Source: Sulfuricurvum sp.
GTDB lineage: Bacteria > Campylobacterota > Campylobacteria > Campylobacterales > Sulfurimonadaceae
Direction of reading: 5' to 3'
Length of the DNA stretch: 64,000 bases
NCBI RefSeq assembly: GCF_028713855.1
Contig: NZ_JAQTNN010000001.1
Span: forward strand, 274,696-338,695
A model generated the notes under the pieces. The model ran no database searches. It saw only the letters and a list, made by a program, of their open reading frames with translations, and was not told the origin of the DNA. The position numbers were made by a program, and so were the translations under genes. Below are positions 28,114-35,286 of this stretch, piece after piece (positions within the stretch are counted from its first letter, which is position 1; the number at the start of each line of letters is the position of its first letter).

Positions 28114-29336
<1,223 letters not shown>

Positions 29337-29372
29337 AGAGATTGCAAGATTTGTTCGAGATGGAAACAAATG

Positions 29373-30344
29373 TTATATTTTACTTGCAGTTATTGGATGT
29401 GAAAGATCATAGGTGAATATTCTAATTTTATCGGAAATAGGATTTTGCCACTTTCTAAGTTTTAACTCTAATTCATGTAAAGTTTCTTTTGGTTCATTAA
29501 AGAGGTTACCTTTAAAACTAAAAATACCAAAAGCCCCATATTCAGCATTAAGATTTTCCATATAAGCAGGTAATTGTACTTTAAGTCCATGTTCTAAATC
29601 AGACGCATGTGCACGTTTAAATTCTATACACATTTTCACATTTTTGTGATTTTTTAACTGCCCTATAAATACGAAATCTACATTTCCAACACCAGTAGTG
29701 TATTCTGGAACAACTTCTATATTTGCTGTAATTGCCGCATCGTAAACAATATAATGTATTGCTGCATGTAAATCTGTCTCATCTTTTGGTTTTTTATCAA
29801 TTATTTTTTTACCTTTTTTTATTACATTCCAAAAAATATCTTTGGAGGGATGTTGGCTGATTTTTGCTTGAATTTTTTGAAGGACTTCATAACATTGTTG
29901 TCTAAATAATTCAACGGTTTCATATTCTTGTCTTGGAATTAAGCTTTGTATATAGGCCTCTTTTATTGTATTGTATGGTGTTGTAAAATAATCAATATCT
30001 AATGATTCTTCTAGTAAATAAGCCTTAGGGCTTCCAGTTAGTTCTCTCAAAAATATTTGAAGTTTTGTTGGACTCCAACTACAAAAGACTACTAAATTAT
30101 CTCCATAGGTGTCAAAATCAAATCTGTCAACATCAAATACACAAACATTGCTATTTCTACTCAAATAAATATGCATATTATTGATTTCTAGTGAGAGATT
30201 ATAATTTTCATCTAACACAGAGAAAATGATTCCACCAGTATTTAATGCTTGACTATTCGTTTCAAATTTAATAGTAGCTTCTGATTTTAGTAGATCAGAG
30301 TTTGTCAAATATCCATTTATTGTATCTGTAATGGTTATGTTCAA
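29373..30344 (-). CDS. predicted PD-(D/E)XK nuclease-like protein
   Basis: 323 aa, AT-rich compared with neighbours, with a TTG start (30344) preceded by AAAGG 7 bases upstream. The C-terminal half has a nuclease-like pattern: GVGNVDFVFIG (Asp), then 13-15 residues later CIEFKRA (E-x-K), followed by LEHGLKVQLPAYMENLNAEYGAFGIFSF. This resembles the core of PD-(D/E)XK enzymes. The N-terminal half is of unknown type. It sits next to the MntA/HepT pair, so a defence role is possible. The family is a motif-based inference. Confidence 0.55.
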   Translation of the reverse strand: MNITITDTINGYLTNSDLLKSEATIKFETNSQALNTGGIIFSVLDENYNLSLEINNMHIYLSRNSNVCVFDVDRFDFDTYGDNLVVFCSWSPTKLQIFLRELTGSPKAYLLEESLDIDYFTTPYNTIKEAYIQSLIPRQEYETVELFRQQCYEVLQKIQAKISQHPSKDIFWNVIKKGKKIIDKKPKDETDLHAAIHYIVYDAAITANIEVVPEYTTGVGNVDFVFIGQLKNHKNVKMCIEFKRAHASDLEHGLKVQLPAYMENLNAEYGAFGIFSFKGNLFNEPKETLHELELKLRKWQNPISDKIRIFTYDLSHPITASKI

Positions 30345-30358
30345 TAGAAAACCTTTAA

Positions 30359-30730
30359 CTACTTATTGTCGTTAATCATCTGCTCGACAGTCTCTTTTAA
30401 CGTATGAATATCGTTTTTGCATACATCATAGACCGCTTCGGCATTGAGATCGAAATAGTGATGGCTGATGATGTCGCGCATCCCTTTGACCGATTTCCAA
30501 TCCACCGCAGGATAATTGGGTAGCAGTTTTTTGTCGGTGATTTTGTCGATATTTTTGAGACTTTCACCGATGGCGATCAACTGCATACAGATGGCATCGA
30601 GTTTTTCATGACCTGCTTCATTTTCTAAAAAATCATCGGGGGATTGGATCGGTTCAAAGCGTTTGATGATGCGCTCGGTCGCGCCGTGAATCTGAGTGAG
30701 GGTTTCGATCAGCAGAGCCTTTTCAGGCAT
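30359..30730 (-). CDS. HepT-like HEPN toxin (DUF86)
   Basis: 123 aa. The HEPN RNase motif R-x4-H-x-Y is present as RDIISHHY, and the overall alpha-helical pattern (LDAICMQLIAIGESLKNIDK, WKSVKGMRDIISHHYFDLN) matches DUF86/HepT. It overlaps the upstream nucleotidyltransferase gene by 8 bases, the standard MntA-HepT order. In characterised pairs the nucleotidyltransferase AMPylates HepT near the motif Tyr to silence it. The protein is probably a growth inhibitor controlled by MntA. Confidence 0.9.
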   Translation of the reverse strand: MPEKALLIETLTQIHGATERIIKRFEPIQSPDDFLENEAGHEKLDAICMQLIAIGESLKNIDKITDKKLLPNYPAVDWKSVKGMRDIISHHYFDLNAEAVYDVCKNDIHTLKETVEQMINDNK

Positions 30731-31013
30731 AGATCGCTTCTTTTTGGATACGTTCTTTTAAAAACGTGTTCATGCTCTCACGGTAGCTGATGAGGTCGAC
30801 ATGGGTGTGCATCAGTTCTTCAAGATCAAGACGGATACGGGAGAGTTTAAAAAGGTTCGGTTGTTTGGTTTCGATGACAACATCGACATCGCTCTCATCG
30901 GTCGCTTCATCGCGTGCGACAGAGCCGAATACTCCGATTCGGAGTATTCCGAACTCATCAGCATGATGCTGTTTGTACGATTCTAATACTTTGAGTGCTT
31001 CTTGTCGTTTCAT
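30723..31013 (-). CDS. MntA-like minimal nucleotidyltransferase antitoxin
   Basis: 96 aa from the ATG at 31013. The nucleotidyltransferase signature GS-x10-DxD is complete: GSVARDEATDESDVDVVIE. It should transfer nucleotides to HepT as the antitoxin. No Shine-Dalgarno is present; TATAAT (31025-31020, reverse strand) ends 6 bases before the ATG, with a TTGAAA 18 bases further upstream. The mRNA is therefore probably leaderless. A longer frame from 31049 would overlap this promoter. Confidence 0.9.
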   Translation of the reverse strand: MKRQEALKVLESYKQHHADEFGILRIGVFGSVARDEATDESDVDVVIETKQPNLFKLSRIRLDLEELMHTHVDLISYRESMNTFLKERIQKEAIYA

Positions 31014-31019
31014 GCAATG

Positions 31020-31049
31020 ATTATAACCTATCTGTAGGGCGTATTTCAA
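31020..31049 (-). promoter_or_regulatory. promoter of mntA-hepT, leaderless configuration
   Basis: On the reverse strand TTGAAA (31049-31044), an 18-base spacer and TATAAT (31025-31020) form a good sigma-70 promoter. The ATG of mntA follows after 6 bases (CATTGC). Confidence 0.65.
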
Positions 31050-31191: not shown

Positions 31192-33453
31192 ATGAACGAG
31201 AGCAAAGATTTTTTACGAACCATCGTCGAAGAGGATTTACACGCGGGCAAATACAGCGAAGTTGTAACCCGTTTCCCCCCTGAGCCAAACGGCTTTCCCC
31301 ACATCGGACACGCCAAATCGATCGCGATCAATTTCGGAATCGCGCGGGACTATAAAGGGCATTGTAATCTTCGGATGGACGATACCAACCCGACGACGGA
31401 AGACACCCGCTACGTTGAAGCGCTCAAAGATGCCGTAGAGTGGCTCGGATTCCAGTGGGAAGGGAATGTCCGCTATACGTCGGATTATTTCCCTGAACTC
31501 TATCAATACGCTATTGAGCTTGTCAAAATGGGAAAAGCCTACGTCGACAGCCTCACTGAAGAGGAGATCCGAGAGTATCGCGGGACGGTGACCGAAGCGG
31601 GACGCCGCAGCAAGTACTCTGAGCGCAGTGTCGAAGAGAATCTCGATCTCTTGGAGCGGATGAAAAACGGTGAGTTCAAAGACGGTGAACACGTCCTCCG
31701 TGCCAAGATCGACATGAGCGCGGCGAATATGAAGATGCGCGATCCGCTGCTGTACCGTATCCGACACGCCCACCACTACCGCACAGGCGATGCGTGGAAT
31801 ATCTACCCGATGTACGATTACGGTCACTGCCTCTCGGATTATCTCGAAGGGGTTACCCACTCTATCTGTACGCTGGAGTTTGAAAACAACCGCGACATCT
31901 ATGATTGGGTACTCGATACGCTGGGGCTGACATCACCGCGTCCGTATCAGCACGAGTTCGCACGTCTGGGGATCAACTACACCGTCATGAGCAAACGAAA
32001 GCTCCTTGAACTGGTCAACGAAGGGTATGTGAACGGTTGGGACGATCCGCGCATGTCGACCATCGCAGGACTTCGCAGACGCGGGTATACCCCTGAGTCA
32101 ATCTTGAACTTCTGTCATCAGATCGGTATCGCAAAAGCCAACTCGATGGTCGATGTGGCACAGCTCGAGTTCTGTATCCGAGATGATCTCAATACCAAAG
32201 TACCCCGCGTGATGTGTGTCCTAGACCCGCTCAAAGTGACGATCGAAAATTACGAAGGGAGCGAAGAGCTTGATGCCTCGTATTACCCTGAGGATGTACC
32301 GAAAGAGGGGAATCGAAAACTGCCGTTCTCCCGCGAGATATACATCGAACGTGAGGATTTCAGTGAGAATCCCCCTTCGGGCTTTTATCGTCTCACACCT
32401 GAACAACCCGTGCGCCTCAAACACGCCTACATCATCACCTGCAAAGAGGTAATAAAAGACGCCTCAGGCAACATCACGGAGATCATCGCAACATATCATC
32501 CCGACTCCAAAAGCGGTTCCGATACGAGCGGTATCAAGGTCAAAAGTGCAATCCAATGGGTCGAAGCGAGTACGGCTAAAACGGTCGAGGTGCGACTCTA
32601 TGATCGTCTCTACACCTGCGAAGCACCGGAGGGGGTCGAAGATCTCAATCCCGATTCGCTCAAAATCATCAAAAACGCTCTGGTCGAACCCGCTCTCATC
32701 ACCGAAAAACCGGATGTCCGCTTCCAGTTCGAACGTCAGGGGTATTTTTATGCCGATCCGATCGACTATACCGACGAAGCACCGGTATTCAACAGAATCG
32801 TAGGGCTGAAAGACTCGTGGAACAAAAAGAACAAAGCGGACGAGAGCACAGCCAAGCTAGAGCGCAAAGCGCCTGAGAAAAAGGTACAGATCGACGGTGA
32901 AGTAGCACCGATGAGTGAAGCCGAGCAGGCGTGTTATGCGAAGTATACAAACGAGTTCAAGCTTAACAGTGAAGTGTCGAATATCCTTGCGCGTGATGAG
33001 AAACTCGCCGTATTCTTCGAAGCGGCTCTTTCAGTCCATAACAGCCCAATAACCATTGCCAACATTGTGGCTAATGAGGTCGCCAGAGAGCTAAAAGAGA
33101 AAGACGCAAGTGAGCTGAAATTCACCGCCGCGCAGATCGCCGAGCTGGTCAAAATGATTGATGATGAGATCATCTCGAACAAAATTGCCAAACAAGTCTT
33201 TGAAGAGATGGCGCAAAGCGGTGAGAATCCATCCAAAATCGTCGAAGCGCAGGGATTGGTACAGATCAGTGATCCGGCGGTGATTGTGCCGATCATCGAT
33301 GACGTGATGGCGAAAAATCCCGATAATGTCGAAAAGTACAAAGCGGGCAATACGAAACTGTTCGGGTTCTTTGTCGGGCAGGTGCTTAAAGCGACGGGAG
33401 GAAAAGCAAATCCTCAGGTCGTCAATGATCTGGTGGCGCAGAAGTTACAATAA
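31192..33453 (+). CDS. glnS: glutaminyl-tRNA synthetase with C-terminal YqeY domain
   Basis: 753 aa; a normal bacterial GlnRS is about 550. Class I signatures are FPPEPNGFPHIGHAKS (HIGH 37-40) and TVMSKRK (265-270). The extra ~180 residues (about 574-753; VSNILARDEKLAVFFEAALS, ANIVANEVARELKE, IAKQVFEEMAQSGENPSKIVEAQGL) match the YqeY/GatB-tail tRNA-binding fold, as in the Deinococcus GlnRS. It charges tRNA-Gln directly. Many Campylobacterota lack GlnRS and use the GatCAB amidation route, so acquisition by transfer is plausible. It is convergent with clpX with 13 bases between. Confidence 0.94.
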   Translation: MNESKDFLRTIVEEDLHAGKYSEVVTRFPPEPNGFPHIGHAKSIAINFGIARDYKGHCNLRMDDTNPTTEDTRYVEALKDAVEWLGFQWEGNVRYTSDYFPELYQYAIELVKMGKAYVDSLTEEEIREYRGTVTEAGRRSKYSERSVEENLDLLERMKNGEFKDGEHVLRAKIDMSAANMKMRDPLLYRIRHAHHYRTGDAWNIYPMYDYGHCLSDYLEGVTHSICTLEFENNRDIYDWVLDTLGLTSPRPYQHEFARLGINYTVMSKRKLLELVNEGYVNGWDDPRMSTIAGLRRRGYTPESILNFCHQIGIAKANSMVDVAQLEFCIRDDLNTKVPRVMCVLDPLKVTIENYEGSEELDASYYPEDVPKEGNRKLPFSREIYIEREDFSENPPSGFYRLTPEQPVRLKHAYIITCKEVIKDASGNITEIIATYHPDSKSGSDTSGIKVKSAIQWVEASTAKTVEVRLYDRLYTCEAPEGVEDLNPDSLKIIKNALVEPALITEKPDVRFQFERQGYFYADPIDYTDEAPVFNRIVGLKDSWNKKNKADESTAKLERKAPEKKVQIDGEVAPMSEAEQACYAKYTNEFKLNSEVSNILARDEKLAVFFEAALSVHNSPITIANIVANEVARELKEKDASELKFTAAQIAELVKMIDDEIISNKIAKQVFEEMAQSGENPSKIVEAQGLVQISDPAVIVPIIDDVMAKNPDNVEKYKAGNTKLFGFFVGQVLKATGGKANPQVVNDLVAQKLQ

Positions 33454-33466
33454 AGTAGGAAGAAGT

Positions 33467-34690
33467 TCACGCTTCCGCGTGATCTTCTTTTGTTTTATAG
33501 ACGTAGATTGGTTCATTTGTTGGGTCTTCGATCACTGCTTCGGTAATCGTAAGACTTTGCAGATTCTTTTTTGACGGGCAGCTAAATTGCAATGGCAACA
33601 TCGCTTCTTCGATGATACTGCGTAACCCGCGTGCACCGACACCGCGATCGATCGCTTTTTGAGCGACCGCATCGAGGGCTTTCGGCTCGAAATTCAGCTC
33701 GATACCGTCCATATCAAACAACGCTTGGAACTGTTTGATGAGGGCATTGTCCGGCTCTTGGAGGATTTGAACCATTTGTTCTTTAGTAAGTTCACGCAGT
33801 TGGGCGACTACGGGGATACGTCCGATAAACTCCGGGATAATTCCATAATGAACCAATGCTTTCGCATCTATTTTTTTCTCTTTGACTTCGCCTTTTTCAG
33901 CGGTTTTGCTGAATCCTACTTTGTTCGACTTTTTCGTATGGGAATCGGGAACGAGACCGACGAAAGCACCTCCGCAGACGAAGAGAACATGAGAGGTGTT
34001 AAAGAGGACGGTTTCGGTCGTAGAATTTTTGCGGCTACCTTTGACTGGGACATAGACTTCGGCACCTTCGAGGATTTTGAGCAAACCTTGTTGTACCCCT
34101 TCACCGGAAACGTCACGTCCCATCGTCGAACTCTCACCTTTACGGGCGATTTTATCGATCTCATCGATGTAGATGATTCCCCGTTGTGCCAACTCGATAT
34201 CGTAGTTTGCCGCAGCGAGAAGGCGTGAGAGGATGCTCTCGACGTCTTCACCCACATATCCGGCTTCGGTCAATGCTGTCGCATCGGCGACGGCAAACGG
34301 CACCTGCATGATCTTGGAGAGTGATTTGGCGAGCAAGGTTTTACCGCTTCCCGTAGGACCCACGAGGAGGATATTGCTTTTTTCCAATTCTACGTTGTTA
34401 TAGACCGGATTTTCGATCCGTTTGTAATGGTTGTAGAGGGCAACGGCAAGGACTTTTTTTGCGTCTAATTGTCCGATAATATACTTGTCCAAAAACTCAA
34501 CAATCTTTTCCGGTGTCGGAAGCTGTTGCTGCATTGCGGAGCGCTGTTCAAAACGGACCTCTTTTTGCAAAATACTGGAGCAGGTAGTGATACACTCATT
34601 ACAGATATGAGTTGTCTCCGAAGAGAACATTTTTTTCACTTCACTTTGTTTACGACCGCAAAATGAGCAGGTTTTTTCTGGTGTACTCAT
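33467..34690 (-). CDS. clpX: ATP-dependent Clp protease ATPase subunit ClpX
   Basis: 407 aa from the ATG at 34690, one base into the clpP stop (TGATG) with AAAGGA at a suitable distance; an in-frame GTG at 34693 is too close to that site. The zinc-binding domain has C8, C11, C30, C33. Walker A is GPTGSGKT (111-118) and the pore/IGF-like loop region includes [10 protein letters not shown]. It unfolds substrates and passes them to ClpP. The gene is in an operon with clpP and the SIR2-like gene, which starts from a nif-type promoter element. Confidence 0.95.
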
Positions 34691-35286
34691 CACACATCCT
34701 TTGCACTGAATTTTGTGAGAATTTCATCCGCAAGACCGAATTCGATCGCTTCTTTGGCTTCCATATAGTTGTCACGGTCGGATTCTTTTTCGATCACTTT
34801 GGCACTTTTCCCTGTTGCTTCAGCGAGGATGACATACAAACGGCGTTTGAGGTTGAGGATATGTTTGGTATGAATCTCGATATCGCTCGCTTGCCCTGAA
34901 TAACCTCCGAGAGGTTGATGAATCATCACTTCAGCATTTGGGAGCATGTATCGATGACCCTTGTCACCGCAGGTAAAGAGTACGGCTGCCATCGAAGCAA
35001 CCATCCCCATGGCATAAGTATAAACCGGAGCGTTGATAAGATTCATAGTATCTAATATGGCTAATCCTGACATCACTGATCCGCCCGGTGAGCTGATGTA
35101 CATGTGTATCGGCTCTTCGGAGTCCATCGCCTCCAGATAGAGCAACTGGGAGACGATAACTCCCATCATATGATCATCGATCGCTTCGGTGATAACGATC
35201 ACCCGATCCCCTAAAAGTTTGGAAAACAGATCGAAATAACGCTCTCCGCGAGGCGAAATATCTTTAACCGTAGGTATCATAGGCAT
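34690..35286 (-). CDS. clpP: ATP-dependent Clp protease proteolytic subunit
   Basis: 198 aa, full length. The catalytic triad is S98 (in YAMGMVASMAAVL), H123 (MIHQPLGG) and D172 (ESDRDNYM). The Ser protease tetradecamer degrades proteins delivered by ClpX, whose gene overlaps its stop. AAGGAGC precedes the ATG. It starts 10 bases after the SIR2-like gene, so this copy is read with that gene. Confidence 0.96.
   Translation of the reverse strand: MPMIPTVKDISPRGERYFDLFSKLLGDRVIVITEAIDDHMMGVIVSQLLYLEAMDSEEPIHMYISSPGGSVMSGLAILDTMNLINAPVYTYAMGMVASMAAVLFTCGDKGHRYMLPNAEVMIHQPLGGYSGQASDIEIHTKHILNLKRRLYVILAEATGKSAKVIEKESDRDNYMEAKEAIEFGLADEILTKFSAKDV

Follow-up and report, generated by a model that had tools for sequence, protein, structure and literature searches.

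In Sulfuricurvum sp., a gene of 323 codons behind an mntA-hepT toxin-antitoxin pair probably encodes a single-gene anti-phage (anti-invader) DNase, which would be an exchangeable passenger of a small, core-flanked defence slot whose borders are hepT and nifS. This reading is based on the PD-(D/E)XK model of the protein's C-terminus, the AT-rich composition of the gene, the differing cargo in relatives (mostly of defence or toxin-antitoxin kind) and the lack of linkage to MntA-HepT. The three reading frames (mntA, hepT and the third gene) are present on the minus strand of the window, i.e. the whole stretch of 64 kb that was analysed, in which no tRNA was found; the features of the locus are the following:

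28114..29304, minus strand: presumed nifS-like cysteine desulfurase gene, core flank
29343..29359, minus strand: CTCGAACAAATCTTGCA, fixed slot edge and beginning of the nifS leader (from the comparison of arrays)
29373..30344, minus strand: third gene, 323 aa, TTG start, C-terminal PD-(D/E)XK domain; putative single-gene cargo
29373..29981, minus strand: PD-(D/E)XK domain, codons 122-323 of the third gene (from alignment and structure model), with E189, E214, D223, E241-x-K243, Q257, Y261 and an S-A-S-K-like tail (TASKI)
29982..30344, minus strand: orphan N-terminal region, codons 1-121 of the third gene, beta-rich only in a low-confidence model (pLDDT 38)
30345..30358, minus strand: 14-base gap from the hepT stop to the TTG of the third gene, with AAAGG 7 bases ahead of the TTG as putative ribosome-binding site
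30359..30730, minus strand: hepT, HEPN RNase toxin, RX4HXY (from Pfam and motif)
30723..31013, minus strand: mntA, minimal nucleotidyltransferase antitoxin, GSX10DXD, start ATG 31013 (from Pfam and motif)
31020..31049, minus strand: mntA promoter TTGAAA-18-TATAAT, 11 of 12 consensus bases, probably giving a leaderless transcript
31192..33453, plus strand: presumed glutaminyl-tRNA-synthetase-like gene, present or absent in the interval of relatives
33467..34693, minus strand: presumed clpX-like gene, far core flank

The names of nifS, clpX and the synthetase gene, as well as tgt and hemL below, are presumed from the look of the sequences. Positions 7160-50322 of the window, the third gene included, recur on contig C9 of the assembly (G000): 43 kb are common to both at 99.7% identity. 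For that reason, we do not take the second copy of all three genes as a sign of mobility; C9 represents either a redundant contig or another strain within the assembly.

The mntA-hepT pair and the gene behind it

By its motifs, the pair at 30359-31013 is an ordinary MntA-HepT pair (type VII toxin-antitoxin), as first described: an MNT protein with GSX10DXD (GSVARDEATDESDVD, from residue 30) adjoins a HEPN protein with RX4HXY (RDIISHHY, from residue 85), the motifs given as defining for the HepT/MntA adenylylation-type toxin-antitoxin in PMC7641770. Matches to PF01909 (E=1.7e-13) and PF01934 (E=8e-21) passed the domain cut-offs; the NCBIfam equivalog cut-off of 60 bits was missed by the pair (42.7 and 33.4 bits), whose members are divergent by this measure. 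The start of mntA had been placed at TTG 31049; the −35 hexamer opens at this position, and the start is ATG 31013. The TATAAT ends 6 bases before this ATG, a spacing kept in 10 of 10 mntA copies of relatives compared, which makes a leaderless start credible: the mntA transcript from TTGAAA-18-TATAAT apparently lacks a leader, so that the earlier description of the gene as leaderless was a fair reading. In two relatives (L063, L068), only the first codons of hepT are left downstream of a retained mntA, and other genes take up its place; here, the antitoxin outlives the toxin.

The third gene opens with TTG 14 bases past the hepT stop and has an intact frame. Its GC content is 0.291 and its GC3 0.167, compared with 0.46-0.55 in hepT, mntA, nifS and clpX, and its AT-richness, remarked upon already at the outset, is equalled by none of the 61,086 other 972-base stretches in the window; by this measure, the composition of the gene is shown to be foreign. 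Among 228 genomes of the family searched, it was found in its own genome and was absent from the other 227. Candidate matches in G092 and G259 were rejected: L006, the one weak match of the family search, encodes an unrelated protein according to its reading frame, and the match in G259 contains three stops. Scans of genome contigs and viral contigs with the whole protein gave no match.

The nuclease domain and the orphan N-terminal region

The third protein reaches no family cut-off; Pfam PDDEXK_9 was matched at E=3.2e-4 with 21.1 bits (cut-off 25.5), residues 126-275 at E=1.2e-4 with 20.4 bits by positions 1128-1270 of the EruA model (NF058535), and the protein at E=2.9e-6 by phrog_30194. 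The latter was followed through 397 genomes of the phylum, which led to three full-length members; further carriers of the domain were a Bradyrhizobium plasmid protein and, from alignment-based scans, one Halobacillus locus and 19 viral-contig loci. An alignment of 21 sequences was assembled from the window protein, the Halobacillus sequence and the 19 viral-contig sequences. Identity in the nuclease domain amounts to 16-26% between the window protein and its relatives, and twelve residues are invariant in all 21 sequences: E189, E214, G218, G220, V222, D223, F224, E241, K243, Q257, Y261 and S321. These include the catalytic D and E-x-K as well as the helix-1 E and the Q (E189, D223, E241, K243, Q257), so that the D...ExK pattern pointed out in the preliminary description is not due to chance. 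The C-terminal tail reads S-A-S-K in most relatives and TASKI in the window protein.

On the same alignment, AlphaFold2 modelled residues 122-323 with a pLDDT of 83.2 and a pTM of 0.80. The elements of the model (H68-85, E89-92, E103-109, E114-123, H129-143, E148-155) follow the PD-(D/E)XK order with its alpha-beta-beta-beta-alpha-beta core; a structure prediction of the C-terminus lacking such a core had been named as the outcome that would speak against the nuclease, and it did not occur. The best VIA-align match to the domain model was BamHI (Z 10.3, rmsd 3.5, 145 aligned residues, 8% identity), followed by BstYI, OkrAI and BglII and then by Can2 at 7.4; Foldseek listed no match to the model at E 0.001 or below, the best being restriction enzyme PaqCI at 1.1e-3. 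Within the reach of alignment and model, the C-terminus of the third protein is thus shown to be a PD-(D/E)XK nuclease domain, with a predicted complete set of catalytic-type residues.

A single-sequence prediction of the whole protein gave a pLDDT of 38, with strands dominating the N-terminal part. For the N-terminal 123 residues, plasmids and phages searched at E 10 yielded no relative, and neither did viral contigs; in solved structures a match to ATP synthase OSCP was rejected as stray (E=0.028, no stretch passing alone). The earlier description of this half as unknown was borne out by these searches. The shared nuclease domain sits C-terminally behind quite different N-terminal parts in the Bradyrhizobium protein, the PDC-M36A type and open frames of 1275 and 1369 aa.

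The gene product is probably, as far as the model goes, a DNase for which invading DNA is the trigger or the target: its N-terminal part would sense infection or bind a target and its C-terminal part would then cut DNA, while the cell's own DNA would be spared by the need for a trigger or by the modified or foreign nature of the target, rather than by a type II methylase, none of which adjoins. A modification-dependent (type IV-like) enzyme, with an N-terminal part that recognises modified bases in phage DNA and a PD-(D/E)XK domain that cuts, would be a special case overlapping with this explanation. The single protein, the slot free of a methylase and the order of an N-terminal part and a C-terminal nuclease, known also from MspJI-type enzymes, would suit such an enzyme, but the N-terminal part bears no detectable relation to any modified-base reader, and we regard this version as unlikely. 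Still less probable is a type II-like endonuclease with BamHI-type fold whose methylase is located elsewhere or lost, be it an orphan enzyme or a decaying remnant: BamHI, BstYI, OkrAI and BglII are indeed the best structural matches, but the neighbours of the nuclease are nifS-like, hepT, mntA and tRNA-synthetase-like genes with no methyltransferase gene beside it or in the slot, the intact frame speaks against decay, and a domain that recurs as C-terminal module behind different N-terminal parts suits an effector more than a sequence-specific enzyme.

The hepT-nifS slot and the wider interval up to clpX

The search for hepT in 41 genomes of the genus (own genome included) revealed orthologues of 85-92% identity in nine others. 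In eight of these, the pair adjoins nifS as in the window; the ninth (G048) had no nifS match on the fetched stretch. The resulting nine hepT-nifS arrays (window and eight relatives) comprise three empty slots, in which 24-30 bases separate hepT from the nifS leader (measured from the aligned ends; L061, L075, L083), one 226-base remnant (L079) and five slots filled with five different genes: the nuclease of the window, an HNH gene (L067), PD-T7-4 (L074, E=4.7e-90), Abi_alpha (L076, E=2.6e-16) and a gene for an unknown 318-aa protein (L077). The far edge is formed by the start of the nifS leader, CTCGAACAAATCTTGCA, in all nine arrays. Judged by these arrays, the gene that gets exchanged is the third one; the slot behind mntA-hepT holds unrelated single genes. 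New genes would enter the slot by homologous recombination within its conserved flanks, mntA-hepT on one side and nifS on the other, and MntA-HepT would act alone as type VII toxin-antitoxin; transfer by recombination in the flanks is also proposed for the Pseudomonas core defense hotspots in PMC10250203.

A CCTGTCC-like stretch was seen at the cargo edge just behind hepT or its stump in L076, L077, L074, L079 and L063, several of them with unrelated fillings; it does not recur as a repeat across the genome. The sequence GCAACCTGTCC, found next to hepT in some relatives, was considered as the mark of a mobile repeat and rejected, a 15-base form of it occurring once in 41 genomes; the 11-base form is absent from the window with one mismatch allowed, and the slot edges held no telling repeat.

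The slot lies inside a wider interval between nifS and clpX. Stretches upstream of nifS were fetched for 28 loci, of which 22 contain clpX too (left out of this count: L071, L072, L082 and L085, with no clpX in the stretch, and L065 and L076, which end before clpX; not fetched: G054 and G065, with nifS at the contig end, and genomes whose sole nifS match is a paralogue of 53-59%). Four of the 22 intervals are empty (L060, L069, L070, L081): clpX abuts nifS, and the nifS leader is missing. In filled loci, nifS is preceded by the leader CTCGAACAAATCTTGCA...ATGAGGAC, as though nifS had a promoter of its own wherever the interval is filled. Of the 18 filled intervals, 16 contain one or more genes of toxin-antitoxin or defence families, which is in line with the defence-like neighbourhood assumed beforehand; different defence genes thus lie between the same core genes, as in a core-flanked defence hotspot. 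The genes include MntA/HepT-type and RelB/YafQ genes, DarTG (DarG E=4.5e-63), Mrr_cat, HEPN-like and HNH genes, PD-T7-4, an AAA ATPase related to HEC-02A and AriA, and a TIR-like gene with 24.6 bits in Pfam (cut-off 24.7). The assignment to toxin-antitoxin genes was made in L064 and L078 by eye from likeness to the scanned L058 genes, and in L062 and L066 by tblastn to the MntA of the window (38%; in L062 also to HepT, 30%). The two filled loci lacking such genes are L059 (synthetase only) and L084 (unknown 314-aa protein). Some of the cargo is not defence-like, namely the synthetase and the ordinary lipoprotein-like genes of L058 and L064.

In a gap comparison of the window with nine relatives (based on main-chain alignments with at least 150 bases and at least 70% identity), the interval from 29.36 kb onwards differs in all nine. 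Other places, such as 36.1-40.3 kb and 44.6-47.3 kb, are also variable in several of the nine, and the window's own genes there look ordinary when read by eye. Since other intervals vary too, variability alone is not special; the specialisation of the nifS-clpX interval lies in its content.

The preliminary description had united the three genes in one mobile defence module and had suggested a search for conserved co-occurrence; in such a module, MntA-HepT would control the nuclease or be controlled by it. We consider this very improbable: the genes share a strand, with a 14-base gap and no terminator-like site found between hepT and the third gene, only 156 bases separate a PDC-M36A-type nuclease relative from another MNT-HEPN pair elsewhere in this genus (G045, L098), and a 2013 HEPN survey (PMC3710099) reports operons that combine HEPN genes with MNT and REase genes, but the third gene occurs in none of the nine other genomes with orthologous hepT, the eight other nifS-linked arrays are empty (three), hold a remnant (one) or carry other genes (four), an MNT or HEPN gene was found near only one of 26 loci of nuclease-domain relatives (L098; tblastn with four queries, of limited sensitivity), and the GC and GC3 of the third gene differ strongly from those of the pair. 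Going by these loci, the nuclease domain has no conserved MNT-HEPN association, and at nifS the pair stands in other species without the third gene, its slot holding unrelated genes. In L098 (630-2898), the PDC-M36A-type gene precedes its MNT-HEPN pair between tgt-like and hemL-like genes; this is perhaps a second small defence slot.

In place of the module, the reading as single-gene cargo offers a testable location: a short slot with fixed edges, which has PD-T7-4 and Abi_alpha among its contents in sister species and is part of an interval that accommodates DarTG and toxin-antitoxin pairs too. The window gene, the 318-aa gene (L077) and the 314-aa gene (L084) are candidate novel anti-phage genes, and a new trigger may be found where an orphan N-terminus is joined to a recognisable effector. 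A further-reaching proposal appears possible to us, if rather doubtful: the gene would found a compact single-protein system in which an unseen N-terminal infection sensor is fused to the SASK-tailed PD-(D/E)XK effector of larger systems (PDC-M36A, NACHT EruA-type), and the hepT-nifS slot would be a one-gene exchange site whose contents the genus swaps by homologous recombination.

Comparison with known systems

Neither the fold nor the toxin-antitoxin nor the concept of core-flanked hotspots is new; the combination of an orphan N-terminus with a SASK-tailed PD-(D/E)XK domain, and the hepT-nifS slot, were not met in the open-licence literature searched. Both signature motifs of the type VII toxin-antitoxin MntA-HepT are found in 30359-31013 as well, and the third gene stands outside that system.

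The closest likeness of the nuclease is to PDC-M36A, a PADLOC candidate (phrog_30194): model PDLC04597 matches six of seven full-length relatives (best E 5.8e-35), and a second PDC-M36A model matches one member among them. Like the window protein, these proteins have a C-terminal PD-(D/E)XK domain with G-x-G-[P/N]-V-D-F ... E-x-K ... Q-x-x-x-Y and an S-A-S-K-like tail; unlike it, they are about 465-490 aa long and possess another N-terminal domain. The window protein itself matched none of the PADLOC PDC-M36A models, only CARF3 at E=0.023 being listed. To judge from the shared residues, the nuclease domain is not new but common to the PDC-M36A candidates; of the novelty first claimed for the third gene, the N-terminal half without relatives stands and the nuclease half does not. 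In Halobacillus (L093, 16-5396), the PDC-M36A-type gene ends a run of three large same-strand frames (595, 282, 374 aa), which may represent a multi-gene defence system.

EruA and HyoA (NCBIfam NF058535 and NF058534) are NACHT antiphage proteins for which no paper was found in the open-licence literature. The EruA model, annotated as a NACHT protein, is 1318 positions long, whereas the window protein is 323 residues long and gave no match to NACHT; the two weakly share the C-terminal stretch matched above, and the 20.4 bits from this part compare with a whole-protein cut-off of 1000 bits. The SASK-tailed domain links PADLOC's uncharacterised PDC-M36A to NACHT effectors. With the BamHI-type type II endonucleases, the window domain has the fold in common over 145 residues; it differs by the low identity of 8%, the missing adjacent methylase and the extra N-terminal region.

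The slots resemble the core defense hotspots cDHS1 and cDHS2 of Pseudomonas aeruginosa, for which PMC10250203 describes varied defence genes between fixed core genes, a low GC content, no single mobile element seen, and median sizes of 26 and 6 kb. Compared with these, the slots described here are small and hold none to a few genes; their length is 0-1 kb behind hepT and reaches about 4.7 kb from nifS to clpX.
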